Assembly (NCBI GenBank): GCA_903821635.1 | Contig: CAIJLV010000054.1 | Coordinates: 1 to 64,000, forward strand | From: an uncultured Verrucomicrobiota bacterium | GTDB lineage: Bacteria; Verrucomicrobiota; Verrucomicrobiia; Limisphaerales; UBA9464 | Direction: 5' to 3' | Length of the DNA: 64,000 nucleotides | Shown here: positions 762 through 13,404 of the stretch, in pieces | How positions within the stretch are numbered: position 1 is the first letter of the stretch | How the letters are laid out: the number at the start of each line of letters is the position of its first letter | Notes under the pieces: generated by a model | Seen by the model: the letters and a program-made list of their open reading frames with translations, nothing else | The model's database searches: none | What the model was told of the DNA's origin: nothing | Program-made: the position numbers and the translations under genes

Positions 762-1523
762 TCAACTCACTGCCACGACCACTTGGACCTCGACTTTCCG
801 TAGTGCTTGGGCGAGTTCGGCGGGCGGAGATCGGTCTGTGACCACAATGTCGATCGCGTCGAGCTCGCAGAGTTGGCTGATGGATTGGCGGCCAAATTTC
901 GACGAATCGATGCAGAAGATCACGCTTCGGGCCGCATGAATCATTGCTCGTTGCATGTCGATAAGGAGTCCGTGGGAGTTGCTGATGCCGTCGGTCGTGA
1001 TGCCGCCGCAGCTCATGATCGCCACGTCGGCGCGGATTTTCTGGAAGGCCTCCACCGCCAAGGGGCCGACCAACACGCCAAGCCGCGGATAGATGACGCC
1101 GCCGGAGACGACGACTTCCAGTTTGTTGGCGGCGGCAAACAAATTCGCGACCGGTAGGGAGTTGGTGAAAACCTGCGGCGCCTTGGGTTCGAGATATCGG
1201 GCGACGTGGTAGCAGGTGGTGCCGGCGTCGATAATGACGGTTTGGTTTGGCTGGATCAGGTCGGCGCAGGCGCGACCAATAAGCTCCTTCTCCGAAAGCT
1301 GATGGGTGTCGCGGGTGTTGAAGGTGAATTCGTCCGACTTTGGATTCACCAGCCGGGCGCCGCCGTGCGTGCGGCGGACGACACCCCGAAGTTCCAGCAC
1401 GATAACGTCGCGGCGAACCGTGGAAACGGACGTGTCTACCAACTCGGAAAGTTCATCCAAGGACGCGAACTCCACCTTCAGCAGGTGGTCTTCAATGCGT
1501 TTCTGGCGTTCTTCACCGGTCAT
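762..1523 (-). CDS. DeoR-family transcriptional regulator of the microcompartment operon
   Basis: A 253-residue DNA-binding repressor of the sugar-phosphate-sensing DeoR family. Residues 5-58 form the winged helix-turn-helix, with recognition region VSTVRRDV (33-40) and the family signature RRTHGGA (50-56). The DeoRC effector domain follows, with IDAGTTC (98-104) and FTNSLPVA (119-126), which in this family bind a phosphorylated sugar. The ATG at 1523 is chosen because the longer open frame to 1598 adds 25 residues with no family similarity and would cover the promoter region. The gene is divergent from pduL with an 87-base gap that holds an inverted repeat overlapping a promoter. This arrangement suggests local repression relieved by a fuculose or rhamnulose phosphate; that ligand is inference. 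Confidence 0.87.
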   Translation of the reverse strand: MTGEERQKRIEDHLLKVEFASLDELSELVDTSVSTVRRDVIVLELRGVVRRTHGGARLVNPKSDEFTFNTRDTHQLSEKELIGRACADLIQPNQTVIIDAGTTCYHVARYLEPKAPQVFTNSLPVANLFAAANKLEVVVSGGVIYPRLGVLVGPLAVEAFQKIRADVAIMSCGGITTDGISNSHGLLIDMQRAMIHAARSVIFCIDSSKFGRQSISQLCELDAIDIVVTDRSPPAELAQALRKVEVQVVVAVS

Positions 1524-1570
1524 TGCTTGAGTAATAAGTGGTAGCTTTTGGAAGTTATTGCAAGAAACGC

Positions 1571-1600
1571 TTTGACAATCTTTCAATCCAGCTGTCAAAT
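1571..1600 (+). promoter_or_regulatory. Promoter with overlapping inverted-repeat operator upstream of pduL
   Basis: TTGACA (1572-1577) matches the sigma-70 -35 consensus. After 17 bases comes TCAAAT (1595-1600), a weak -10. The same bases form the inverted repeat TTTGACA-N15-TGTCAAA (1571-1577 and 1593-1599). A repressor bound here would block RNA polymerase. Its place between deoR and pduL makes the DeoR protein the natural candidate to bind it. Confidence 0.5.
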
Positions 1601-1610
1601 CACCTCACTC

Positions 1611-2288
1611 ATGTCGACTTTGGTTTCTACCCCGCACCGTGCGGTCGTCGAGCATTTGGTCCGTCAGGCGGTTTACGCCCGAATGGGCCGGACTTTACCC
1701 CGCAGTGCGGGGGCGCCCAACGCGCTCATTGTCAATGTGAGTGCCCGGCATTGCCACCTGACGCAGGAGGCGGTCGATGCGTTGTTTGGCAAGGGCCATA
1801 AATTGCAGGTCCACAAGTGGCTCTATCAGGACGGGCAATTTGCCGCAAAGGAGACCGTGACGTTGGTGGGTCCGCGCAGTCGCGTGATTTCCAACCTGCG
1901 TATTCTCGGCCCCTGCCGAAGTTTAAACCAAGTCGAATTAGCCTACACTGACGGCATTGCTCTCGGATTCGACCTGCCGTTGCGCAGTTCCGGCGATATC
2001 AAGGGCACGCTCAGTGGGATGTTAATGGGCCCGGCCGGCTTTTTTGAAATGGAGCAGGGGATCATCCGTGCGCTGCGCCACGTGCACATGAGTCCGACGG
2101 ACGCGGACTTTTACGGGGTGAAGGCAGGCGAATGGATGAAGCTCAAAATAGGCGGTCCGTGCGGCCTGATGCTCGACCGGATGCTAGTCCGGGTGGACCC
2201 CAGCTTTAAACTTGAGGTTCACATCGACACCGACGAAGGCAACGCCTGCAACCTCCAGCCCGACACTCTGTGCGAGCTGGTTAAATAA
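1611..2288 (+). CDS. pduL: PduL-type phosphate propanoyltransferase (microcompartment)
   Basis: A 225-residue phosphotransacylase that converts acyl-CoA and phosphate to acyl-phosphate, regenerating free CoA inside the shell; here the acyl group is probably lactyl. The two PduL halves are visible, each with a zinc-binding His pair: SARHCHL (44-50) and RHVHM (156-160). The segment EVHIDTDEGNAC adds His204. The N-terminal 25 residues can form an amphipathic helix (AVVEHLVRQAVYARMG), consistent with an encapsulation peptide. The ATG at 1611 is preferred over a 1548 start because the extra residues overlap the promoter. First gene of the operon, 37 bases before the first BMC-H gene. The first motif has Cys between the two His residues, where the family usually has a hydrophobic residue. 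Confidence 0.9.
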   Translation: MSTLVSTPHRAVVEHLVRQAVYARMGRTLPRSAGAPNALIVNVSARHCHLTQEAVDALFGKGHKLQVHKWLYQDGQFAAKETVTLVGPRSRVISNLRILGPCRSLNQVELAYTDGIALGFDLPLRSSGDIKGTLSGMLMGPAGFFEMEQGIIRALRHVHMSPTDADFYGVKAGEWMKLKIGGPCGLMLDRMLVRVDPSFKLEVHIDTDEGNACNLQPDTLCELVK

Positions 2289-2325: not shown

Positions 2326-2619
2326 ATGAGCGAAGCAATCGGCATGATTGAAACGAAGGGCTTCACCGGCAGCGTCGAGGCAACCGACGCCATGGCGAAG
2401 GCCGCAAACGTCACTATCAGCAAAACCATCGCCATCGGCGGCGGTCTGATCACCGTCATCTGCCGCGGCGACGTGGCCAGCGTGAAGGCGGCAGTGGACG
2501 CCGGCAGCAAGGCCGCGAGCCGGGTCGGCGAACTCGTCGCCAGCCACGTGATCGCCCGGCCGCATGATGATCTCGGCAAAGTATTTCTCGGCGAAGTCGC
2601 AGCGGCGGCCAAGAAGTAA
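2326..2619 (+). CDS. BMC-H shell protein 1
   Basis: A 97-residue single-domain BMC (PF00936) protein that forms hexameric shell tiles. Typical features are the opening [12 protein letters not shown], the [14 protein letters not shown] segment (the conserved Lys edge at the hexamer interface lies elsewhere in the fold), and the closing [10 protein letters not shown]. The tail KKVFL-like end is short and Ala/Lys-rich. The sequence around the pore (IGGGLIT) is glycine-rich. It lies 37 bases after pduL and 38 before the next BMC-H. Diverged from the two other BMC-H copies, so the three probably give pores with different selectivity. Confidence 0.93.
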
Positions 2620-2657: not shown

Positions 2658-2939
2658 ATGGCTCAACAAGCTATCGGCATGATCGAATGCAAAGGCCTGT
2701 GCGCGCTTTTCGAAGCCGCCGACGCCGCCCTTAAGTCCGCCAATGTCACCTTCACCGGGTGGGAAAAAGTCGGCTCCGGTTATGTAACTGCATTTTTTCG
2801 CGGCGACGTCGCCAGCGTGAAAGCCGCCACTGACGCGGGCGCGGCGGCGGCGGCTCAGGTCGGTTCGGTCGTTGCGGTGCAGGTTATTCCCCGTCCGCAT
2901 GAAGGTCTGAGCGGGCTCGGCAAGTGGCTCGTGCAGTAA
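2658..2939 (+). CDS. BMC-H shell protein 2
   Basis: A 93-residue BMC-domain hexamer protein. It starts [13 protein letters not shown], carries [14 protein letters not shown], and ends with [18 protein letters not shown], the usual end of the fold plus a short tail. The pore-region segment ([13 protein letters not shown]) differs from that of its neighbours, with an aromatic-rich strand. Cysteines at positions 11 and 15 are unusual for this family. Part of the shell operon; followed by a 102-base gap before the kinase gene. Confidence 0.93.
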
Positions 2940-3041: not shown

Positions 3042-4232
3042 GTGAAAATCCTCGTCGCCAACCTCGGTTCTACGTCGCTTAAGTGGCGGTTGTTCGAATT
3101 TTCGGACGCCGCTGTAACGCTGCTGCACAAAGGCGGCTTTGAGCGCGTGACCGACTATTCCAAGGCCATTGAGGACTGCCTCACGCAGCTCACGGAAGCC
3201 GGTGCCATCGCCAACGAAAGCGAATTGGCGGCGGTCGGCTTCAAGACGGTCATCGCTAAAGATGTCACTGGCTGTGTCCGGTTGGATGAGCCAGTGCTTC
3301 AGGCGATGGCGGATTACAACGGGCTCGCGCCGGCGCACAACCCGCCCTACATCACCGGCATCCGCCTCTTTGCGCAGCGGATTCCGAAGGTGCCGTTGGT
3401 CGGTCTATTTGAGACGGCGTTCTACCAGTTCGCGCCTGAAGCGATGATGCGGTATGCGGTGCCGGATTCTTGGCACGCCATTGGGGTTCGGCGTTGGGGT
3501 TTTCATGGTGCGAGTCACAAGTTCATCGCCGAACGCAGTGCTGAACTCCTCGGACGCCAAGACGTGGCCCGCCGGGCGCAGAATCTTTACGTGGACCACG
3601 GCCAATCGCCTGTTGAAGGCCCGCCGCTGCGGGTTATCTCGTGTCATCTCGGTGGTAGTTCCAGCATCACGGGCATTTTGAACGGCGTAGCCATTGGCAA
3701 CAGCTTGGGCATGAGCCCGCAATCGGGTTTGCCCCACAATAATCGTGTCGGTGACCTCGACGCGGAGGCGCTGCCTTACGTGGTTAAGACGCTTGGTCTT
3801 TCTATCGAGGAAGCCCAGCGGCAGTTCGCGAAGGAGGGCGGCCTGAAAGGTTTATCCGGCGGTTTTTCCAATGACGTGCGTGACATCCAAGAAGCGGCTG
3901 CAAAGGGTAACGCCCAAGCCAAGCTCGCCATTGATGTCTTTGTGAGTGAAGCCCGACGTTGGATTGGTGGCTATTTTCTTCAATTGAACGGCGCGGATGC
4001 CCTCGTGTTCACCGCCGGTATCGGCGAGAACCGCGCGGAACTACGCGCTGCCATCTGCGCCAACCTCGACCAACTTGGCATCGTGCTCGACGCGGAAAAG
4101 AACGCCGCCACACGGGCCACCGAAACGGTCATCAGCGCCCCAGAATCGCGGGTGAAGGTTATGGTCATTCCCACCAACGAGGAGCTCGTCGTGGCTCGCG
4201 AAACCCGTCGTTTGCTCGCCTCGTCCCGCTAA
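3042..4232 (+). CDS. Acetate/propionate kinase-family protein with altered active site
   Basis: A 396-residue ASKHA-fold kinase that would take the acyl-phosphate made by PduL to a carboxylate plus ATP. The fold is clear: VANLGSTSLKWRL at the N-terminus, HNPP (99-102), GFHGASH (153-159) and NRVGDLD (234-240). Three places differ from the canonical enzyme by eye alignment: GHRVVHGG is replaced by GFKTVIAK, so the Arg91 equivalent (M. thermophila numbering) is Lys68; FDTAFHQ is FETAFYQ, so the Asp148 equivalent is Glu124; and its His is Tyr127. The Arg241 equivalent (Arg235) is kept. Start is GTG at 3042. The gene lies among shell genes, so it may act in or on the microcompartment. I infer lactyl- or propionyl-phosphate as substrate, and activity is not certain. 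Confidence 0.85.
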   Translation: MKILVANLGSTSLKWRLFEFSDAAVTLLHKGGFERVTDYSKAIEDCLTQLTEAGAIANESELAAVGFKTVIAKDVTGCVRLDEPVLQAMADYNGLAPAHNPPYITGIRLFAQRIPKVPLVGLFETAFYQFAPEAMMRYAVPDSWHAIGVRRWGFHGASHKFIAERSAELLGRQDVARRAQNLYVDHGQSPVEGPPLRVISCHLGGSSSITGILNGVAIGNSLGMSPQSGLPHNNRVGDLDAEALPYVVKTLGLSIEEAQRQFAKEGGLKGLSGGFSNDVRDIQEAAAKGNAQAKLAIDVFVSEARRWIGGYFLQLNGADALVFTAGIGENRAELRAAICANLDQLGIVLDAEKNAATRATETVISAPESRVKVMVIPTNEELVVARETRRLLASSR

Positions 4233-4283: not shown

Positions 4284-4568
4284 ATGGCACAACAAGCAAT
4301 AGGACTCATTGAAACCCGTGGGCTCGTGGCTCTGGTCGAAGCGACGGACGCGATGCTCAAATCGGCGAATGTCGAACTCGTCGGCCCGATGGTGCAGGTC
4401 GGCAACGCCATGGTGACGGCCACCGTCGTCGGCGATGTCGCCGCCGTAAAAGCGGCCACCGATGCCGGTGCCCAAGCCGTCAAGGCGATCAAAGGCGACC
4501 TCGTCAGCGTGCATGTCATCGCCCGTCCACATGAGGACGTGGACGCCGTGCTGCCGAAGAAGAAGTAG
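4284..4568 (+). CDS. BMC-H shell protein 3
   Basis: A 94-residue single BMC-domain protein. It opens MAQQAIGLIETRG, continues with the [14 protein letters not shown] segment, and ends HVIARPHEDVDAVLPKKK. It is the closest of the three to canonical PduA/EutM-like tiles; the lysine-rich tail is short. It sits 51 bases after the kinase gene. The following 98-base gap holds an inverted-repeat structure before the first BMC-P gene. Confidence 0.93.
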   Translation: MAQQAIGLIETRGLVALVEATDAMLKSANVELVGPMVQVGNAMVTATVVGDVAAVKAATDAGAQAVKAIKGDLVSVHVIARPHEDVDAVLPKKK

Positions 4569-4666: not shown

Positions 4667-4978
4667 ATGTTCCTCGCCCGCGTAGAAGGATCGGTCGTTT
4701 CGACCAAGAAGGAAGCCAGCATGAACGGCCGCAAGCTGCTCCTGCTGCGGCCGCAGTTGGTGGACGACAAGGACCCGACCCAGTTCCGGTCCGGTTCGAA
4801 CACCATCATCGCGGTGGACACCGTGGGCGCGGGCATCGGCGAACTGGTGATGTTCTGCCAAGGCAGCAGCGCCCGCCTCGCCGGCGGCATGAGAGATGCC
4901 CCGGTGGACGCCGTGATCATCGGCATCGTCGATACGGTAGATGTGCTGGGTAAGGAAATTTTCAACGCCAGACAGTGA
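4667..4978 (+). CDS. BMC-P (EutN/CcmL) shell vertex protein 1
   Basis: A 103-residue pentamer-forming protein (PF03319) that caps the vertices of the shell. Family marks are MFLARVEGSVVSTKKEASMNG at the start, LLLRPQLVDD, the core VAVDTVGAGIGE-like segment (here IIAVDTVGAGIGELVM), QGSSAR, and VDAVIIGIVDTVDV near the end. It is the longest of three BMC-P genes in the operon and the only one placed before the aldehyde dehydrogenase. Confidence 0.93.
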   Translation: MFLARVEGSVVSTKKEASMNGRKLLLLRPQLVDDKDPTQFRSGSNTIIAVDTVGAGIGELVMFCQGSSARLAGGMRDAPVDAVIIGIVDTVDVLGKEIFNARQ

Positions 4979-5038: not shown

Positions 5039-5054
5039 AGGAGGTGGGCCTCCT
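5039..5054 (+). promoter_or_regulatory. Shine-Dalgarno-like sequence within a perfect hairpin
   Basis: AGGAGG (5039-5044), loop TGGG (5045-5048) and CCTCCT (5049-5054) form a perfect six-base-pair hairpin hiding a consensus ribosome-binding sequence. It lies 26 bases before the ATG at 5071, too far for ordinary use. A weaker GGAAG (5059-5063) sits at a normal distance and probably serves the aldehyde dehydrogenase gene. Confidence 0.4.
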
Positions 5055-5070
5055 AGCCGGAAGCATTGTA

Positions 5071-6567
5071 ATGAGCGCAGTTAACGAATCCCTGATCCGA
5101 GATGTGGTCGCCGAAGTGTTGAGCCGGTTGGGCGGAGCGCCTGCCGCGGCGAAGCCGGCATCCTCCGAACCCGCCGCTTCTTCATGTGGCTGTGGGGGCA
5201 AAGGTGCCGCGACGTCCGCGCCCGGTTTGCGGGGCAAGTTCGGCGTCTTCCAGGATGCGAACGAGGCGAGCGCCGCCGCCCACGAATCGTTCGTTCAACT
5301 ACAGAAGGCCGGCGTCGCCGCCCGCGTGAAGATCGTCGAGATCGTCAAGGCGATGGCCGAGGCGAACGCCGAGGCGTGGGGCAAGATCGAGCTGGAAGAG
5401 ACGAAGATTGGCCGCCTCGACCACAAGATCGAGAAGCTGAAGATCATCAAGCTCGTCCCTGGCGTCGAGTGGCTCCGCCCGGACGCCCGCAGCGGCGATC
5501 ACGGCATCACGCTGGAGGAATATACGCCCTTCGGCGTCGTCGGCGCGGTCACGCCGAGCACGCATTCGATTCCGACGTTGAGCGGCAACATCGTGAACAT
5601 CTGCGCGGCGGGGAATGCGGTGGTGTTTAACCCGCATCCGAGCGCGGCGCGTTGCGCGGCGCTTGCGGTGCGCGCCTACAACGAAGCCATCTATCGCGAG
5701 ACCGGTATTGAGAACATCGCGACCATCATCGAGAAGCCCTCGATGGAGAGCTTTGCCGCGATGTGCAAGCACGAGGCCGTCCGCATCCTGCTCGTCACCG
5801 GCGGTCCCGGCGTCGTGAAAGCCGCGATGCAGACTGGCAAGCGCGCCATCTGCGCCGGCCCCGGCAATCCGCCGGTTTATGTCGATGACACCGCCTGCAT
5901 GAAGCGTGCGGCGAAGGCGATCATCCAGGGTGCGAGCTACGACAACAACCTGCTCTGCATCGGCGAGAAGGAAGTCTTCGCGCTGGAAAACATCGCGGAC
6001 AAATTGATGGCGCAGATGGAGCAGAACGGCGCGGTGAAACTCACGAACGCCCAACTCGACGCGCTGACCCAGGCGGCGTTCACCATCACGCCCGGTCAGG
6101 GTGGCGGTTGTGGCCACGCGCGCGTGAACAAGGATTTCATCGGCAAGGATCCTTCTGTGTTGGCCAAAGCCGCCGGGCTGAATTTGCCAGCCGGAACGCA
6201 GCTATTGTTCGCTGAAACTGATGCGAACCACCCGTTCGTCGTCGAGGAACAGATGATGCCCTTCCTGCCGATCACGCGCGTGAAGAGTTTGGAAGAAGGC
6301 GTTGCCCGCTCGCTCGAAGCCGAACACGGCTACAAGCACACGAGCATCATTCATTCGCACGACATTGAAGCCCTAACCGCAATGGGTCGCACGCTCGATA
6401 CGACCCTGTTCATTAAGAATGGGCCCAGTATGGCGGGTCTCGGATTGGGAGGCGAAGGCTACCTCAGTTTCTCTATCGCGACGCCCACCGGTGAAGGGGT
6501 CAGCAATCCGCGCACCTTTACCCGCGTTCGACGCTGCGTGATGGTGGACAACCTGAAGATTTACTGA
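5071..6567 (+). CDS. CoA-acylating aldehyde dehydrogenase, PduP/EutE-like
   Basis: A 498-residue NAD-dependent enzyme that oxidises an aldehyde (lactaldehyde is expected here) to acyl-CoA inside the shell. An amphipathic N-terminal helix ESLIRDVVAEVLSRL (6-20) followed by an Ala/Pro linker is a typical encapsulation peptide. A small CGCGG cysteine cluster (about 39-43) lies in the linker. The catalytic domain has TPSTHSIPT (161-169), NPHPSA (187-192), TGGPGVV (243-249) and the nucleophile Cys296 in NNLLCIGEK. ATG at 5071 is chosen over GTG at 5044 because the peptide-like helix begins there. The stop is 8 bases before the next shell gene, so coupling is likely. It shares a pathway with PduL and the aldolase. 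Confidence 0.92.
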   Translation: MSAVNESLIRDVVAEVLSRLGGAPAAAKPASSEPAASSCGCGGKGAATSAPGLRGKFGVFQDANEASAAAHESFVQLQKAGVAARVKIVEIVKAMAEANAEAWGKIELEETKIGRLDHKIEKLKIIKLVPGVEWLRPDARSGDHGITLEEYTPFGVVGAVTPSTHSIPTLSGNIVNICAAGNAVVFNPHPSAARCAALAVRAYNEAIYRETGIENIATIIEKPSMESFAAMCKHEAVRILLVTGGPGVVKAAMQTGKRAICAGPGNPPVYVDDTACMKRAAKAIIQGASYDNNLLCIGEKEVFALENIADKLMAQMEQNGAVKLTNAQLDALTQAAFTITPGQGGGCGHARVNKDFIGKDPSVLAKAAGLNLPAGTQLLFAETDANHPFVVEEQMMPFLPITRVKSLEEGVARSLEAEHGYKHTSIIHSHDIEALTAMGRTLDTTLFIKNGPSMAGLGLGGEGYLSFSIATPTGEGVSNPRTFTRVRRCVMVDNLKIY

Positions 6568-6575
6568 GCCTCCCC

Positions 6576-6854
6576 ATGCTCCTCGCCCGCGTCGAAGGCA
6601 ATGTGGTCGCCACCCGGAAGCATCCCAGCTTCGAGGGTTGGCGGCTCGTCATCTGCCAGCCGATCGGTCAGGACGGCACGCCGGAAGGCTCGCCGCAGAT
6701 TGCCATCGATTCTCATGGGGCAGGCATGCACCAGCGGGTGGTGATTTCCAGCGACGGCTCGGAAGCGCGCAAGGCGGTCGGTGACCCGAGAAGCCCGGCT
6801 CGGTGGTTGGTGGTCGGGATCGTGGACGAAAAGGAACCGGGAGTGCCGGTATGA
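6576..6854 (+). CDS. BMC-P (EutN/CcmL) shell vertex protein 2
   Basis: A 92-residue pentamer protein with MLLARVEGNVVATRKHPSF at the start, IAIDSHGAGMHQRVVISSDG in the middle and WLVVGIVDEKE near the end. Its stop codon overlaps the next start (ATGA at 6851-6854), so the two BMC-P genes are probably translationally coupled. The sequence HGAG replaces the more usual VGAG of the family core. Confidence 0.92.
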   Translation: MLLARVEGNVVATRKHPSFEGWRLVICQPIGQDGTPEGSPQIAIDSHGAGMHQRVVISSDGSEARKAVGDPRSPARWLVVGIVDEKEPGVPV

Positions 6855-7156
6855 AACTCGGCGCCGTCATCGGGCGGGTCACATTGAGCACGGTCGTTCC
6901 CGAGTTGCGGGGCGCACGCTGGCTGATCGTTTCGCCGTTTACCCGGGAGCATTACCAGCGCGGCTGCGACACGCCGCTGGGCCTGAGCAAGGATCCGAGT
7001 CTGGTGGTTTACGACGCGCTCGGTGGCGGCGTGGGCCAGACTATCGGTTACGTCGAGGGCCGGGAAGCGGCCCAGCCTTTTGAAACCCCACCGCCGATTG
7101 ATGCCTTCAACGCGGCCTTGGTGGACGAAATCTTCTACAACCCGTTTAACAAATGA
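6851..7156 (+). CDS. BMC-P (EutN/CcmL) shell vertex protein 3
   Basis: A 101-residue pentamer protein. It begins MKLGAVIGRVTLSTVVPELRG, followed by SPFTREHY, VVYDALGGGVGQTIGYVEGREA, and ends with VDEIFYNPFNK. The ATG at 6851 overlaps the previous stop; the longer frame from 6803 adds residues unlike the family. The stop overlaps the ATG of the aldolase gene (ATGA at 7153-7156). The C-terminal extension after the fold (PFETPPPIDAFNAAL) is distinctive among the three copies. Confidence 0.92.
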   Translation: MKLGAVIGRVTLSTVVPELRGARWLIVSPFTREHYQRGCDTPLGLSKDPSLVVYDALGGGVGQTIGYVEGREAAQPFETPPPIDAFNAALVDEIFYNPFNK

Positions 7157-8193
7157 GCACGGTTTTCACCGCCAAAGATATCGAGGAGATCATCGCCAAG
7201 GGTGGCGATCCCGTCGCCGCCTCCAAGGACGCCATCCTCACGCCGTCCGCCAAGGACGTGCTGCGTGACTTCGCCGCGAAATCGTCGCGTTCGGCGCCAG
7301 TGTCTGCGTCGGTGTCTGCCGTGCCGGCGAAGCCGTTGAATTCCAAGAGTCCCAAGGCCGAACTAGAGGCCTACTTCAACTCCCCGGCCGCGCACGCGCT
7401 TAAGGAACAGATCTGCGCGATGGGGCGCCGGCTGTGGGAACGCGAATATGTGGACGGGAACGGTGGCAACATGGCCATCCGCGTCGGTGAGGACATCGCC
7501 ATCTGCACGCCGACGCTGGTCAGCAAAGGTTCGCTCAAGCCGGAAGACATGTGCCTCGTGGACTTCGAGGGCAACCAACTGCTCGGCACCAAGCGGCGCA
7601 CCAGTGAGATCTTGATGCACCTGCAGATGATGAAGCGGCAGCCGAGTGCCGTGGCCACGTGCCATTGCCATCCGCCGTATTCGACGGCGTTTGCGGTGGT
7701 TGGCGAAGCCCCGCCCACATGCATGCTGCCGGAGTATGAAGTGTTCTGCTCCGTTGGCGTCGCGCCGTATCGCACGCCCGGTTCGCCGGACATGGGCAAG
7801 CTCGTCGCGGAGCTGACCGACCAATACAACACCATCCTGATGGCGAATCACGGCGTGGTGACGTGGTCGCACAACAACATTGAGGAAGCCTACTGGCGCA
7901 TGGAGATCATCGAGGCGTATTGCCGCACGATCGTGGTCGCTGGTCAGCTCGGGAAACCGATCCAGACCTTCACCGGGCCGCAGATGAAGGACATCCTGAA
8001 CATCAAGAAGTCGCTCGGATTCGTTGACCCGCGTTACGGCATGAAGGAATGCGAACTCTGCGACAGCGGCGACTGGCGTCCGGGCGCGACGTGCGCCGTT
8101 CCTGAGCGTGCCGAAGCGGCCGTGGGCTACGACGCCGAGGCGGAAGCCGCCGTGCAGGCGATCACGGACCAGATTTTGGCGCAGATGAAGTGA
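7153..8193 (+). CDS. Class II aldolase/adducin-family protein (fuculose/rhamnulose phosphate aldolase type)
   Basis: A 346-residue zinc aldolase expected to split fuculose 1-phosphate or rhamnulose 1-phosphate into dihydroxyacetone phosphate and lactaldehyde, feeding the aldehyde dehydrogenase. The zinc site is visible as His171 and His173 in CHCHPPY and His233 in ANHGVV; Glu152 (TSEILMH) is the likely acid/base. The family core is about 210 residues. Here about 75 residues precede it, with helix AKDIEEIIAKGGDP and a second helix around SAKDVLRDFAAK. A C-terminal helix (AEAAVQAITDQILAQMK) also follows, after a Cys-containing segment (KECELCDSGDW). These extensions are likely docking or encapsulation elements. 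Starts overlap and spacing show strong coupling with the shell genes. Confidence 0.88.
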   Translation: MSTVFTAKDIEEIIAKGGDPVAASKDAILTPSAKDVLRDFAAKSSRSAPVSASVSAVPAKPLNSKSPKAELEAYFNSPAAHALKEQICAMGRRLWEREYVDGNGGNMAIRVGEDIAICTPTLVSKGSLKPEDMCLVDFEGNQLLGTKRRTSEILMHLQMMKRQPSAVATCHCHPPYSTAFAVVGEAPPTCMLPEYEVFCSVGVAPYRTPGSPDMGKLVAELTDQYNTILMANHGVVTWSHNNIEEAYWRMEIIEAYCRTIVVAGQLGKPIQTFTGPQMKDILNIKKSLGFVDPRYGMKECELCDSGDWRPGATCAVPERAEAAVGYDAEAEAAVQAITDQILAQMK

Positions 8194-8212
8194 GCTCGAA
8201 GGACCTTTTCCA

Positions 8213-9139
8213 ATGAAAGTTGCAATCATCGGTGGTGGCGGTCGTGTGGGTTCATGCGCGGCGTTCGCCTTACAGTGCGGCGGACTCGTCTCGGCGATCC
8301 AAATTCTCGACGCCAACAAGGATCTGGCCGACGGCGAAGCGCTGGATTTGCTGCACGGCAGCGCGTTCGCGGGCGACCAGAAGATCTACGCCGGCGATTA
8401 CGCCCGAGCCGCCGACAGCGACATTTTCCTCATCACCGCGGGCCTGCGCCGCAAGCCGGATGAATCGCGCCTCGACCTTATCAACCGCAACGTGGCGCTG
8501 TTCGTTGGGATTCTCGACAGCATCAAGGCGGCGGGTTTCCGGAAGGACGCCCACATTTTCGTGGTGTCGAACCCGGTGGACATCCTTACGCAGCTTGCCG
8601 GCCAGCGGCTCGGTCTGCCGTGGCAGCAAGTTTACGGGTTGGGCACGATGCTCGACACGTCGCGCTTCAGTTCGCTCATCGCGGAGGAGCTGAAGCTGGC
8701 TCCGACCCAAGTGAAAGCTCTGATCTTAGGTGAACATGGCGACTCCATGTTGCCGGTCTGGTCGAGCGCGACGGTCAACGGGTTGCCGCTGGCAGGACTG
8801 GCCGAATGCAGCCCGTCGTTCCAGAACACCGTTTTCGAACGCACTAAGGGCAGTGGCGCCGAAGTCATCAAGCGCAAGGGTGGCGCCGGTTGGGCGGTGG
8901 GTATTGCCATTCGCGACGTGATTCATGCGGTGCTGCTCAACAAGCAGACGCTGTTGCCGGTTTCGTCGCTAGTTCAGGGAGCCTACGACATCCGCGATAT
9001 CTGCCTGAGCGTTCCGAGCGTGGTCAGTCGCAAGGGCGTGGAGAAGCACGTCGAAATCAAGCTTTGGCCCAAGGAACAGATGGCGTTGCAGGCCTCGGCC
9101 CGTGCGCTGAAGGAAACGCTCGCGAAGGTAAAAGCCTGA
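8213..9139 (+). CDS. Lactate/malate dehydrogenase-family protein
   Basis: A 308-residue NAD-dependent 2-hydroxyacid dehydrogenase. It has the Rossmann loop IGGGGRVGS (6-14), Asp33 for NAD ribose, SNPVDILTQLAG (119-130), and catalytic His175 in GEHGDS. In the mobile loop the specificity position is Arg80 (GLRRKPDESR). Lactate dehydrogenases have Gln there and malate dehydrogenases Arg, so the loop looks malate-like, although the NPVD and GTMLDTSRF segments look lactate-like. In PVM-type loci this enzyme is thought to recycle NADH made by the aldehyde dehydrogenase. It lies 19 bases after the aldolase. There is no obvious encapsulation peptide, so it may work outside the shell. Substrate not settled from sequence. 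Confidence 0.85.
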   Translation: MKVAIIGGGGRVGSCAAFALQCGGLVSAIQILDANKDLADGEALDLLHGSAFAGDQKIYAGDYARAADSDIFLITAGLRRKPDESRLDLINRNVALFVGILDSIKAAGFRKDAHIFVVSNPVDILTQLAGQRLGLPWQQVYGLGTMLDTSRFSSLIAEELKLAPTQVKALILGEHGDSMLPVWSSATVNGLPLAGLAECSPSFQNTVFERTKGSGAEVIKRKGGAGWAVGIAIRDVIHAVLLNKQTLLPVSSLVQGAYDIRDICLSVPSVVSRKGVEKHVEIKLWPKEQMALQASARALKETLAKVKA

Positions 9140-9241
9140 ACATTGCCCCCAGACTCCATCACTTGGTGCCTCACCGCAGAATTGCGGCAGCGAGTGTGGG
9201 TGCCCAATGCTCATTGAGCCTTGGACCTTGGATATTCCCTC

Positions 9242-10531
9242 ATGAAATCCCTCGACGCCAAACTCGCTGAAATCCGGGCCAATCGCTCTTCGCGGGCCTT
9301 CATCATTGCCGATGCCAAGGACGCTGACATGGCGTTTGGGGTGCGGGCACCGGGACCGCGTGGTTTTCTGGCGCGGTCGGGCGCGCGACCGGGACAATTT
9401 TCGCCTGAAGTGTGGAGCCGTGACGAATTTGGCTACCGCAACTTGCCCGAATTTCTCGACATCATCCGCGAGGTCACGCACCAGGGCCTAGTTGATATCA
9501 TGCTGATGTCGGCTTACGTGAACGAACAACTCACCATTAAAGAAGGGTTATTCAAGAGCTCACACGTGACGCCGGCGGCGCGGGCGAACGACACCACGGA
9601 TGTGTGGGCCGTGCGGCACGGTTGCTATACCCGCGAACCCAGCCAGCCGTTTCGGAGCGCGACCATCGACCAGATTCAGTGCGGGGAGATTGAGTGCGCG
9701 CGTGATGGCAGTGGTGACTTTTTGGGCGCCAATCTGGGGCTCTATTCGGTCACGTTCGTCAATGAGTTGGAGCAGGATCGGGAAGCTTTACTGTGGTATA
9801 AAGCCTTCCGGGAAGAGGCTGAGCGGAAACAATTCCGACACTTCTTGGAAATCTTCGATCCGAACGTGGCCAGCGGCATTGCCCCCGAAAAACTTGGAGA
9901 ATTCATCAACGACAACATTCTCCGGACGTTAGCCGGTGTGCCTGAGTCGGGCCGCCCAGTGTTCCTCAAGATCGTCTATCATGGGCCCAAGGCGATGGAG
10001 GAGCTGGCTCAATACGACCCGAATCTCGTGGTTGGCATTTTGGGCGGGAGCGCCGGCACGACTTACGACGCCTTCCGGCTCATTCATGACGCGCAGAAAT
10101 ACGGCGCCCGAGTGGCGTTGTTTGGCCGCAAGATCAACAACGCCGAACACCAGCTAGCCTTCATCGAAATGCTGCGGCTCATCACCGACGGCAAGCTCGG
10201 TCCCGAAGAAGCGGTTCGGGCCTACCACGGTGTGCTGCAAGGCAAAGGGATCAAGCCTACCCGCCCGTTGGAATCTGACCTGCAATTGACCGATCAGACC
10301 ATGAGCTACGACGGCAGTGCGACGAAGCGGGCGACGGTGGCGGTGCAAAATAATCCCTTGGCTGGCGCCGCCCAACCGGCAGCGCCCGAGGTGGCGCAGT
10401 CAGTGCGACCTGCGGGCGGTTCGGTTATCGGCTGGCCCCAACGGCCTGATGGCGGGCCGGATTTTGAGGCCATGAACAGCGAGCAGCGGACGGCGTATCA
10501 CGAGGCGCGTTTGAAGCGCGTCTTTGGCTGA
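9242..10531 (+). CDS. DhnA-like class I aldolase homologue, microcompartment-associated
   Basis: A 429-residue protein I do not recognise as a named enzyme. The second half resembles DhnA/LacD-type class I aldolases (TIM barrel): FLKIVYHG (241-248) resembles the strand with the Schiff-base lysine, making Lys243 the candidate catalytic residue. NLVVGILGGSAG (261-272) and ARVALFGRKINN (289-300) resemble the phosphate-binding strands 7 and 8. About 80 residues follow the barrel, starting with a low-complexity Ala/Pro linker (about 345-385) and ending in a helix, RTAYHEARLKRVFG. The ATG at 9242 is chosen; GTG or upstream ATG would add a few unsupported residues. It is last in the operon, 102 bases after the dehydrogenase. 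Its reaction is unknown; a second cleavage or condensation on lactaldehyde or a sugar phosphate is possible. Confidence 0.65.
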   Translation: MKSLDAKLAEIRANRSSRAFIIADAKDADMAFGVRAPGPRGFLARSGARPGQFSPEVWSRDEFGYRNLPEFLDIIREVTHQGLVDIMLMSAYVNEQLTIKEGLFKSSHVTPAARANDTTDVWAVRHGCYTREPSQPFRSATIDQIQCGEIECARDGSGDFLGANLGLYSVTFVNELEQDREALLWYKAFREEAERKQFRHFLEIFDPNVASGIAPEKLGEFINDNILRTLAGVPESGRPVFLKIVYHGPKAMEELAQYDPNLVVGILGGSAGTTYDAFRLIHDAQKYGARVALFGRKINNAEHQLAFIEMLRLITDGKLGPEEAVRAYHGVLQGKGIKPTRPLESDLQLTDQTMSYDGSATKRATVAVQNNPLAGAAQPAAPEVAQSVRPAGGSVIGWPQRPDGGPDFEAMNSEQRTAYHEARLKRVFG

Positions 10532-10601
10532 GTCGGCCCCGGTGTTCGTCGGGTTTCAGGGGAGTCAGATCCGGGTCTTAGTTCGCCAATTTCCAGTGTG
10601 C

Positions 10602-10645
10602 GCCCGCCGGCCTAAACAGTGCTTATTGGCAGGGGTTCGGCGGGC
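10602..10645 (+). terminator. Weak inverted repeat after the microcompartment operon
   Basis: GCCCGCCG (10602-10609) and CGGCGGGC (10638-10645) are exact complements separated by 28 bases. They lie 70 bases after the operon's last stop codon and before the next start. There is no T-run, so a Rho-dependent end or an RNA structure upstream of the next gene are equally possible. Confidence 0.3.
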
Positions 10646-10690
10646 CTGAAATCACTAAACCGCACGCTGAAACCGGAAAGGAAACACGCC

Positions 10691-10909
10691 ATGAAACGCC
10701 TGTATTACGTCAGTGAAGAAATGTGCGGCGGGGAGGATTTGCCGCCGGAATTTGATTTGGGTGACTTTTGCGAAGTGCTGCAAGGCAAGCTCGACGATGT
10801 GGAGGTCATCCCGGTCACTGAGCCGGAAAGTGAAGCCGTGAACCGTGACGAGGACCTCGTGCCGGAAGCGGTCTTCTACGAGGCCCTCGGCGAGTATCTG
10901 CAACGCTGA
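10691..10909 (+). CDS. Small acidic protein of unknown function
   Basis: A 72-residue, strongly acidic protein (many Glu and Asp, one Cys), not recognised. A good purine-rich ribosome-binding region (GGAAAGGAAA) lies just before the ATG at 10691, which supports this start over the longer frame from 10619. No membrane segment or signal peptide is seen. It lies between the microcompartment operon and dtd, all on the same strand; the short gap (31 bases) to dtd suggests it is read with dtd rather than with the shell genes. Confidence 0.55.
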   Translation: MKRLYYVSEEMCGGEDLPPEFDLGDFCEVLQGKLDDVEVIPVTEPESEAVNRDEDLVPEAVFYEALGEYLQR

Positions 10910-10940
10910 CACGCCGGGCTAAAGGCCGCACGCTGGCCGA

Positions 10941-11393
10941 ATGCGGACCGTAGTGCAGCGGGTAAGCACCGCCAAGGTGCAGGTGGCGGGAGCGGTGGTC
11001 GGCGAGATCAAGGCCGGTTTATTGGTGCTGCTGGCGGTGGAGCCTGCGGATACGGCCGAAGATATCGAATGGCTCGCGGCCAAACTCAGGCACCTTCGCC
11101 TCTTCGACGACGAGGCCGGCGTGATGAATCGTTCGGTCTTTGAGGTGGGCGGCGACCTGCTCTTGGTGAGCCAGTTCACCCTGCATGCCAGCACCAAAAA
11201 AGGCACCCGCCCCTCGTGGCATCGGGCCGCCAAGCCGGACGTTGCCCGGCCACTTTACGAGGCGTTTCAGCGGCGGCTCGAAGAGTTACTCGGCCGGCCC
11301 GTGCCCACCGGAAGTTTTGGCGCGGACATGCAGGTGAGCTTGGTCAACGATGGCCCGGTTACCTTGATCCTCGATTCCAAGCTCCGCGAATGA
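10941..11393 (+). CDS. dtd: D-aminoacyl-tRNA deacylase
   Basis: A 150-residue protein that removes D-amino acids (and Gly from tRNA-Ala) mischarged on tRNA. It begins [17 protein letters not shown] and has the catalytic-region motif [13 protein letters not shown] (family SQFTL) and the C-terminal [15 protein letters not shown] (family NDGPVT, carrying the Gly-cisPro partner site region). The length is normal for the family. In the core, [11 protein letters not shown] replaces the usual RPSF..AA.P. It is followed by a Nudix gene 40 bases on. Confidence 0.95.
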
Positions 11394-11433
11394 ACCGTTG
11401 GCGACCGGTTGAGTCCAGCCGCAAGCTACGCCC

Positions 11434-11928
11434 GTGAGTGAAGAGATTTTTGATGTCGTCAACGAGCGCGACGAAGTCGTGGGGCAACTCGTCCGGCGCG
11501 AAGTTCACCGGCAAAACTTGCGGCATCGAGCCGTGCACGTGTTGCTCTTCAACCAGCGTGGGGAACTGTTTCTCCAGCAGCGTTCGCTGGCCAAGGATAA
11601 CTTCCCCGGCGTGTGGGATTCGTCGTCGTCCGGGCATCTTGATGCCGGTGAAGAGTATGACGCCTGCACGCTCCGCGAGGTCCGGGAAGAACTGGGAGTG
11701 CAACTCGGCGCCGTGCCGACGCGCCTCTTCAAGCTGGAAGCCTCGGCAGGAACCGGCTGGGAATTTTGCTGGGTTTACCGGGCCGAACACGAAGGTCCGT
11801 TCGGGCTACAGGAATCCGAGGTTCGGGGCGGCGGCTGGTTCACGCCAGAGGCCATCACCGAATGGATTGAGCGGCGGCCGCAAGATTTTGCCCGCGCGTT
11901 CGTCCTCGTGTGGCAACGCCTGACTTGA
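11434..11928 (+). CDS. Nudix hydrolase, YfcD/IDI-like
   Basis: A 164-residue Nudix protein. The complete Nudix box G-x5-E-x7-REVREELGV is present (about residues 67-89, GHLDAGEEYDACTL followed by REVREELGV). This gives a metal-dependent site for cleaving nucleoside-diphosphate-type or related substrates. The N-terminal half (FDVVNERDEVVGQLVRREVH, then HRAVHVLLFN) resembles the YfcD and isopentenyl-diphosphate-isomerase-like group, but the isomerase's catalytic Cys motif is not evident. I call it a hydrolase of unknown substrate. Start is GTG at 11434. Confidence 0.88.
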   Translation: MSEEIFDVVNERDEVVGQLVRREVHRQNLRHRAVHVLLFNQRGELFLQQRSLAKDNFPGVWDSSSSGHLDAGEEYDACTLREVREELGVQLGAVPTRLFKLEASAGTGWEFCWVYRAEHEGPFGLQESEVRGGGWFTPEAITEWIERRPQDFARAFVLVWQRLT

Positions 11929-12006
11929 AGCGGGCCGCCTGAAAACGGCGACGGGCAGCTTCGCGTTTTGGGGTCCCGACTCACGTTCAATCCGACCTAG
12001 GCGGCC

Positions 12007-13404
12007 GTGCGCTCGTTCGAGCCGATCATTTCGCGATTGATTCGAGGGCCGCGTGTGAGTTCATCCGCGGCCGTGAAGTTGAAGTTCAAAGACGTGGACG
12101 GTGCGATCGTGGCGCCGCCGGGATTCCGCACCGCCGGCGTGTTTTGCGACATCAAACGGCTGGGCACCGGCAAGGGGTCGAACAAGGGGCAGAAGCGTGA
12201 CCTCACCTTGATCGTTTCGGACGTGCCGTGTGCGGTCGCGGGCATGTTCACCACGAACCAGATTTGCGCTGCCCCGGTCAAGGTTTGCGTGCCGCGGGTG
12301 GCCAAGGGCATTGCCCAGGCGGTCGTCGTCAATTCCGGCAACGCCAATGCCTGCACCGGCAAGCAGGGCATGAAGGACGCCCTCGCCATGACGCGTCTCG
12401 TTGAGAAGACTCTCGGCATCAAGGACGGTTATGCGCTCGTCGGTTCGACCGGCCGAATCGGCGTGAACCTGCCGATGGAGCAGGTGAATTCGGGCATTCT
12501 GGCCACGGCCCCACTGCTCGGTTCCACGGTAGAACACGCCACGCACTCTGCTGAGGCGATCATGACCAGCGACACCAAGCCGAAGCAGGTGGCCATTGAG
12601 TTCAAGCTCGGCGGCAAGACGGTGCGGTTGGGCGGTATGTGCAAGGGGGCGGGTATGATTCAGCCTGGCATGAGCGCCACCGGCGCACGACCAGCGGCGC
12701 TGCCCCAAGGGCTTCACGCCACCATGCTGGCTTTTATCACCACCGATGCGGCCGTCGAGGCCAAGGTGTTGCAGGCGGAGCTACGGGAGGCGGTCGCGCA
12801 CAGCTTCAATCGGATCACGGTGGACGGCGACATGAGCACCAACGACACGGTCTTGGTGCTCGCCAATGGGTTGGCCGGGAACCCCAAGTTCAAGGTTGCG
12901 GGCAAGGACTTTGAAATCTTTCAAGCGGCGTTGACCCATGTCTGCCTAGAGCTCGCGAAGAAAATCGTGCGCGACGGCGAGGGCGTTCATCGCGTGGTGA
13001 CGGTGCGTGTAACCGGGGGCAAGAGTCTCGCCGAGGCGGATGCGGCGGCCCGAGCGGTGGCCAATAGCGCGCTGGTGAAGACGAGTTGGCACGGCGGCGA
13101 TCCCAATTGGGGGCGGATTATTGACGCGCTCGGCTACAGTTCGGCGACTGTGGTGGAGTCCCAGGTGGACATCGGTTACAGCGCCCCAGGCAGCCGTAAA
13201 ATCTTGTGGACTCTCAAGCGTGGGCAGCCGACCAAGGCGACCTACAAAGCCTTGTGCGCCGCGGCCGCGCCGGAGGAATTCGACCTGCACATTCGGCTGA
13301 ATTTGGGTGAAGGCGCCGCGCTCATGTATGCCGCGGACCTCACGGAGGAATACGTCGAGTTCAACAAGGGTGACGTGACGGATCCGGCCACGCTGGGGGG
13401 CTAG
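12007..13404 (+). CDS. argJ: Bifunctional ornithine acetyltransferase / N-acetylglutamate synthase
   Basis: A 465-residue enzyme of arginine biosynthesis that recycles the acetyl group from N-acetylornithine to glutamate. ArgJ cleaves itself before the Thr of an ATML motif; here that motif is HATMLAFITTD. Canonical proteins have KGSGMI-x-P-N-M directly joined to ATML, whereas this one has KGAGMIQPGMS, then about 15 extra residues rich in Ala and Pro, before HATML. Other landmarks are VVNSGNANACTG, STGRIGV, SFNRITVDGDMSTND, KTSWHGGDPNWGRI and the C-terminal NKGDVTDP. The first about 20 residues are outside the conserved core, so GTG codons further in could be the real start. It converges on the LacI-type gene with only 17 bases between. 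Confidence 0.93.
   Translation: MRSFEPIISRLIRGPRVSSSAAVKLKFKDVDGAIVAPPGFRTAGVFCDIKRLGTGKGSNKGQKRDLTLIVSDVPCAVAGMFTTNQICAAPVKVCVPRVAKGIAQAVVVNSGNANACTGKQGMKDALAMTRLVEKTLGIKDGYALVGSTGRIGVNLPMEQVNSGILATAPLLGSTVEHATHSAEAIMTSDTKPKQVAIEFKLGGKTVRLGGMCKGAGMIQPGMSATGARPAALPQGLHATMLAFITTDAAVEAKVLQAELREAVAHSFNRITVDGDMSTNDTVLVLANGLAGNPKFKVAGKDFEIFQAALTHVCLELAKKIVRDGEGVHRVVTVRVTGGKSLAEADAAARAVANSALVKTSWHGGDPNWGRIIDALGYSSATVVESQVDIGYSAPGSRKILWTLKRGQPTKATYKALCAAAAPEEFDLHIRLNLGEGAALMYAADLTEEYVEFNKGDVTDPATLGG

Follow-up and report, generated by a model that had tools for sequence, protein, structure and literature searches.

Identification of a probable second aldolase gene in a PVM operon

The microcompartment operon located at the beginning of the window (the whole stretch of 64,000 nucleotides analysed, from an uncultured bacterium of the phylum Verrucomicrobiota) already contains a class II aldolase. 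Which role, then, can be attributed to the protein encoded by its last gene, hereafter named X, which resembles an aldolase of an unrelated type? The preliminary description had proposed that an aldolase homologue closes a microcompartment operon already provided with a class II aldolase, and both statements are borne out: the class II enzyme (PF00596) is encoded at 7153-8193, and an intact open reading frame at 9242-10531 follows the PVM genes. The locus is a complete PVM-type (fucose/rhamnose) microcompartment operon composed of the following genes:

762..1598 (-), divergent DeoR-family regulator
1548..2288 (+), phosphate propanoyltransferase (PTAC, PvmB-type), whose true start is probably internal
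2326..2619 (+), BMC-H shell protein
2658..2939 (+), BMC-H shell protein
3042..4232 (+), acetate/propionate kinase
4284..4568 (+), BMC-H shell protein
4667..4978 (+), BMC-P shell vertex protein
5044..6567 (+), CoA-acylating aldehyde dehydrogenase (AldDH)
6576..6854 (+), BMC-P shell vertex protein
6851..7156 (+), BMC-P shell vertex protein
7153..8193 (+), class II aldolase, PVM signature enzyme, PF00596
8213..9139 (+), lactate/malate dehydrogenase-type NAD+ recycling enzyme (LDH, PvmO-type)
9242..10531 (+), gene X, 429 aa, resembling class I aldolases and bearing a BMC-type tail

This composition is that given for PVM loci in PMC4207490. The PF00596 aldolase, the AldDH, the PTAC, the kinase, the LDH/MDH-type enzyme, the three BMC-H and three BMC-P proteins and the DeoR regulator are all shared with the known PVM microcompartment, and what the window operon has beyond it is a second, unrelated aldolase with a tail of its own.

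The open reading frame of X extends from an ATG at 9242 to a stop codon at 10529-10531, and sequence comparison indicates that its start residue is common to the homologues. X begins 102 bp past the stop codon of the LDH gene, in the same orientation, and no promoter- or terminator-like site was detected in this gap by a simple scan. In other genomes the gap between the class II aldolase gene and X is about zero, X abutting or overlapping it (for instance in G291 and G470). A genome scan recovered at least 575 relatives of X, the best 80 of which are 67-84% identical over nearly the full length; X is thus a real coding sequence, and the explanations by chance, by a frame error or by a non-coding frame were rejected since orthologues exist. 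A search of viral contigs gave one fragment. Directly downstream of X, the window contains an acidic open reading frame of 73 residues (10688-10909, +) without a Pfam match.

Sequence relationships and predicted fold

At the sequence level, X matches no Pfam family at E <= 1. It does not belong to PF01791 (DeoC/LacD), the two PF01791 matches of the genome being located elsewhere, and its scores against the NCBIfam models TIGR01949 (15.3 bits, curated cut-off 299), NF005556 (15.4 bits, cut-off 241) and NF006081 (11.4 bits, cut-off 297) are far below the thresholds of the DhnA-type families. X is consequently a distant homologue of the DhnA and LacD proteins that lies outside the curated families; of the initial designation as a "DhnA-like class I aldolase", the homology stands and the family membership does not. 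Used alone as a query with phmmer, X retrieved nothing useful from the PDB. A profile built from 20 diverse homologues detected LsrF (E 0.006) and, more weakly, MJ0400 (E 0.5), and in the LsrF alignment Lys243 of X falls on the catalytic Lys203 and Arg296 on the phosphate-binding Arg254. The corresponding profile comparison of the X family with E. coli YihT gave no match, whereas that with LsrF succeeded. The X proteins probably constitute an undescribed family of their own, of the class I aldolase type.

The structure was predicted in two AlphaFold (AF2) models, one of the whole protein (pTM 0.59, mean pLDDT 64) and one of residues 1-355 (pTM 0.75, mean pLDDT 72), which are moderately confident and leave the loop 28-66 unresolved. 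The predicted fold consists of eight strands in the order of a TIM barrel, (beta/alpha)8. The top ranks of Foldseek were occupied by MJ0400 (E about 1e-7) and by LacD and LsrF (1e-6). With VIA, the sulfohexulose-1-phosphate aldolase obtained a Z-score of 16.4 (251 residues, 3.9 A), effectively tied with LacD, YihT and the FBP aldolases (Z about 15-16). The similarity to LacD covers the whole barrel (Z 15-16, about 250 residues, 3.8-4.3 A), and is to be read as evidence of fold and not of function. Lys243, Glu203, Asp24 and Arg296, as well as Asp27, are invariant in 99 homologues. The motifs containing the candidate active-site residues are located as follows:

9302..9316 (+), residues 21-25 of strand 1, where the ADAKD motif begins (Asp24 and Asp27 invariant)
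9836..9856 (+), strand 5, residues 199-205, with the invariant Glu203 as candidate acid/base
9962..9973 (+), strand 6, residues 241-244 (FLKI), with Lys243 as candidate Schiff-base lysine
10043..10060 (+), residues 268-273, the GGSAGT loop that follows strand 7, a candidate site for the phosphate
10124..10135 (+), residues 295-298, GRKI closing strand 8, Arg296 being aligned to the phosphate ligand Arg254 of LsrF

The structure prediction and the overlay on LacD/DhnA aldolases suggested in the preliminary description thus yield a TIM barrel with class I aldolases as matches. Its candidate Schiff-base lysine in FLKIVYHG is indeed residue 243, on strand 6, aligned to Lys203 of LsrF and invariant in the 99 proteins. 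From the barrel, the class I aldolase matches, the LsrF alignment and the invariance of Lys243, Glu203, Asp24 and Arg296, we conclude that X is probably a distant class I aldolase, predicted to be active.

Distribution of X and linkage to PVM genes

Whether X is kept at this place in other PVM loci was answered positively for many loci of its order. PVM genes are found upstream of X, in the same order, in most of the loci of the best 80 among the at least 575 relatives. Among 196 genomes of the window's order, X is present in 114, the PVM class II aldolase in 129 and both in 109, this co-occurrence having a Fisher p of 3e-27 uncorrected for shared ancestry; the two genes lie within 4 kb of each other in 95 of the 109 genomes with both. 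In the rest of the phylum, class II aldolases of the PVM type are frequent, but X, where it occurs, is unlinked and untailed, which indicates that the recruitment of X is confined to one lineage. In many PVM-positive genomes, X is either absent or represented solely by an untailed, unlinked form. Where a tailed X lies away from PVM genes, the PVM aldolase is still encoded in the genome in all 17 cases (17/17), some of them on short contigs.

Downstream of X, no recurrent sugar kinase or isomerase was detected in 43 BMC-linked loci, and bifunctional RhaD-type open reading frames occur in three of these 43. One of them, in the locus L009 (11305-13551, -), closes off the PVM operon in convergent orientation to X and codes for a bifunctional rhamnulose-1-phosphate aldolase/short-chain dehydrogenase. 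Six loci (L001, L003, L010, L019, L021 and L024) come from metagenome bins titled Klebsiella pneumoniae or Akkermansia muciniphila, although their PVM genes resemble those of Pedosphaera/Limisphaerales and are very similar to the window; the titles of these records look wrong.

The linker and the C-terminal tail

The low-complexity linker and the terminal helix noticed at the outset are both present in the model:

10307..10426 (+), low-complexity disordered linker, residues 356-395, absent in stand-alone relatives
10433..10528 (+), conserved 32-residue tail with a terminal helix at residues 413-428, candidate encapsulation peptide

The linker is predicted with a pLDDT below 50 and the helix with a pLDDT of about 85. 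In the BMC-type X proteins the tail corresponds to the consensus WPxxxDGxPDFxxMTSxQRxAYxxxRLxRxFG. It is present in 77 of 78 BMC-type proteins and in none of the 22 stand-alone relatives (0/22), and one branch of a quick tree, with a support of 99, separates tailed from untailed proteins. The tail motif was found in no other protein of the 19 related genomes searched, X being its sole carrier.

Encapsulation peptides are terminal amphipathic helices of about 18 residues carried on a disordered linker (PMC12339742). As modelled, the tail of X has this architecture, a terminal helix joined by a disordered linker, and its absence from the 22 stand-alone proteins agrees with the absence of such peptides from homologues outside microcompartments. 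The hydrophobic moment of the helix is 0.19-0.36 (shuffle p 0.17-0.48), and the N-terminal peptide of AldDH is likewise non-significant in the same test. The idea of a tail docking to the shell, already put forward, is strengthened by the finding of the tail only in the BMC-type lineage, and the tail probably packs X into the organelle.

Two loci show irregular tails. In L007, part of the X tail recurs about 900 bases further downstream (12178-12300), as a truncated duplication. L027 contains the sole BMC-linked X without the tail motif (10001-11191); it ends early with a different C-terminus, possibly through a frameshift or an assembly error.

Stand-alone relatives and their genomic neighbours

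The stand-alone relatives of X are 48-62% identical to it, count about 345 residues, stop before the linker and have no tail. They come from rhizobia and other Verrucomicrobiota, without adjoining microcompartment genes; those of the rhizobia are annotated as "hypothetical protein" and are included in sugar ABC-transporter operons. In 21 of the 22 stand-alone loci examined (all but L120), a ketohexokinase (Khk) or PfkB kinase and/or a D-lyxose/mannose isomerase is encoded on the same strand within about 3 kb. The same partners adjoin six tailed X genes located off the PVM operon:

L031, isomerase-Khk-X
L025 and L034, Khk-X
L036 and L037, PfkB-X-isomerase
L048, PfkB neighbour

Ketose-1-phosphate routes usually run from an isomerase through a kinase to an aldolase. 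The substrate of the stand-alone relatives would accordingly be a ketose-1-phosphate produced by the neighbouring Khk/PfkB kinase, often after a D-lyxose/D-mannose-type isomerase, and cleaved into dihydroxyacetone phosphate (DHAP) and an aldehyde. The cleavage of D-xylulose-1-phosphate to glycolaldehyde and DHAP is known chemistry (PMC4918971), and the sulfofructose-1-phosphate route pairs the PfkB-type kinase YihV with the class I aldolase YihT (PMC9594981). A protein family that has no Pfam model and is labelled hypothetical in rhizobia thereby receives a likely function.

No kinase or isomerase gene lies beside X in the window; the genome encodes one unlinked Khk and no D-lyxose isomerase was found in it. 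Ten positions differ consistently between the tailed and the stand-alone proteins, one of them, four residues after Lys243, being a His (His247) in place of an Asn. With one of these tail-associated substitutions so near to Lys243, the specificity or the substrate of the tailed enzymes may differ from that of the stand-alone ones.

Proposed role of X and alternative explanations

On balance, we are inclined to regard X as a Schiff-base ketose-1-phosphate aldolase that was recruited as a cargo of the PVM microcompartment and feeds a second aldehyde to the shell. In this scheme, Lys243 would form a Schiff base with the ketone of the ketose-1-phosphate, the phosphate being held by Arg296 and the GGSAGT loop, and the C3-C4 bond would be cut to give DHAP and an aldehyde. 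In one lineage of Verrucomicrobiota the enzyme would have gained the disordered linker and the conserved terminal helix and so become PVM cargo. The tail would place the cleavage inside the shell, where, next to the class II aldolase that cleaves fuculose- or rhamnulose-1-phosphate, the aldehyde would meet the encapsulated CoA-acylating AldDH. To judge from the neighbours of the relatives, candidate substrates of X are D-xylulose-1-phosphate (giving glycolaldehyde), D-fructose-1-phosphate (giving glyceraldehyde) and a 6-deoxyketose-1-phosphate (giving lactaldehyde). The preliminary description had imagined an additional branch through another carbon-carbon bond; such a branch fits the ketose-1-phosphate neighbours, and the lactaldehyde it mentioned is not specifically supported. 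A more specific version, which we hold only tentatively, is that the tailed X cleaves a non-6-deoxy ketose-1-phosphate inside a shell with two feeds and that the off-operon X is still targeted to the shell by its tail. The ketose would then be D-xylulose-1-phosphate or D-fructose-1-phosphate, derived from D-lyxose/D-mannose-type sugars, and glycolaldehyde or glyceraldehyde would consequently be handled by the AldDH that acts on lactaldehyde.

Alternatively, X could be encapsulated and catalytic and share the substrates of the class II aldolase (L-fuculose-1-phosphate and/or L-rhamnulose-1-phosphate), as a metal-free or stereochemically looser backup that opens no new branch. LacD-type aldolases have a loose stereochemistry, in most genomes X comes straight after the PVM aldolase, a bifunctional RhaD accompanies some linked loci, and the genome of the window lacks a D-lyxose isomerase; the positions near Lys243 that changed with the gain of the tail would also fit a shift to 6-deoxyketose phosphates. 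However, a pure fucose/rhamnose backup would need neither the D-lyxose isomerase nor the Khk/PfkB kinase found with the off-operon tailed genes, and many PVM-positive genomes do with an untailed, unlinked X or with none, so that we consider this explanation unlikely. Somewhat less probable again is that X functions as an aldolase in the cytosol, as part of the regulon and not of the organelle, with a tail serving another purpose, for example oligomerisation. Class I aldolases of the LsrF type form decamers (PMC2728841), the tail is not clearly amphipathic, and its motif occurs in no other protein of the 19 related genomes. Against these points stand the restriction of the tail to the BMC-type lineage, the PVM aldolase present in the genomes of all 17 unlinked tailed cases and the architecture shared with encapsulation peptides.

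The chemistry itself could be another one, X being a lyase of the same superfamily, such as an LsrF-like thiolase or a condensing enzyme resembling ADH synthase, since its best sequence matches are LsrF and MJ0400 and not an FBP aldolase. The kinase and sugar-isomerase genes that consistently occur in the neighbourhood are in keeping with an aldolase of sugar catabolism instead, and no LsrG-like or aromatic-pathway neighbour was recognised, which makes this reading quite improbable. The invariance of the catalytic residues in 99 proteins and the full-length orthologues, 67-84% identical in the best 80 of at least 575, leave hardly any room for reading X as a scaffold without catalytic activity or as a passenger gene undergoing decay, even if two aldolases in one shell would not be expected and the tail has been lost in one locus (L027).

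Comparison with known systems

Metabolosomes take their names from a single signature enzyme, the one that generates the aldehyde. If X is an aldolase with a packing tail, as we favour, the compartment may cleave another kind of sugar phosphate in addition to those of fucose and rhamnose; two sugar routes would then share one shell, and the PVM organelles of Verrucomicrobiota would accept a wider range of substrates than fucose and rhamnose. The untailed and tailed relatives of X would form a natural before-and-after pair for studying the recruitment of an enzyme into an organelle.

In the SPU microcompartments, too, the aldehyde is supplied within the shell by a class I aldolase (PMC8217296). 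There, however, this enzyme is of the DeoC type (PF01791) and is the signature enzyme, whereas X does not belong to PF01791 and adjoins a class II aldolase. The portions of the BMC survey literature considered contain no mention of a second tailed aldolase in PVM loci; relative to these, the class I aldolase, the PVM shell and the terminal peptide are of known kinds and their combination is new.

Among the individual enzymes, LsrF/MJ0400 ADH synthase and the archaeal FBP aldolase (DhnA-type) have in common with X the TIM barrel, the strand-6 lysine and the GR arginine after strand 8, whereas the identity is only about 14% in structural alignment and X adds the 28-66 loop insertion and the C-terminal tail. 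LacD and YihT/sulfohexulose-1-phosphate aldolase gave the best structural Z-scores (15-16.4), but are about 10% identical to X, which has no PF01791 match. YihT likewise works with a PfkB kinase making a ketose-1-phosphate (PMC9594981). The relatives of X neighbour Khk and D-lyxose isomerase genes and not, as YihT does, sulfoquinovose genes, with the exception of an isomerase-like neighbour in the locus L122. In this locus (7440-12036), a stand-alone relative of X is accompanied by a PfkB kinase, an FbaA-type aldolase of class II and a protein similar to SftI, a sulfoquinovose isomerase, with a match below the cut-off (E 2e-33); the locus may represent a hybrid sugar or sulfosugar cluster. Finally, one Verrucomicrobiota genome (G229) encodes four stand-alone paralogues of X (C13, C14, C35 and C58), which adjoin different PfkB/Khk kinases or a DeoR regulator and suggest an expansion to several sugars.
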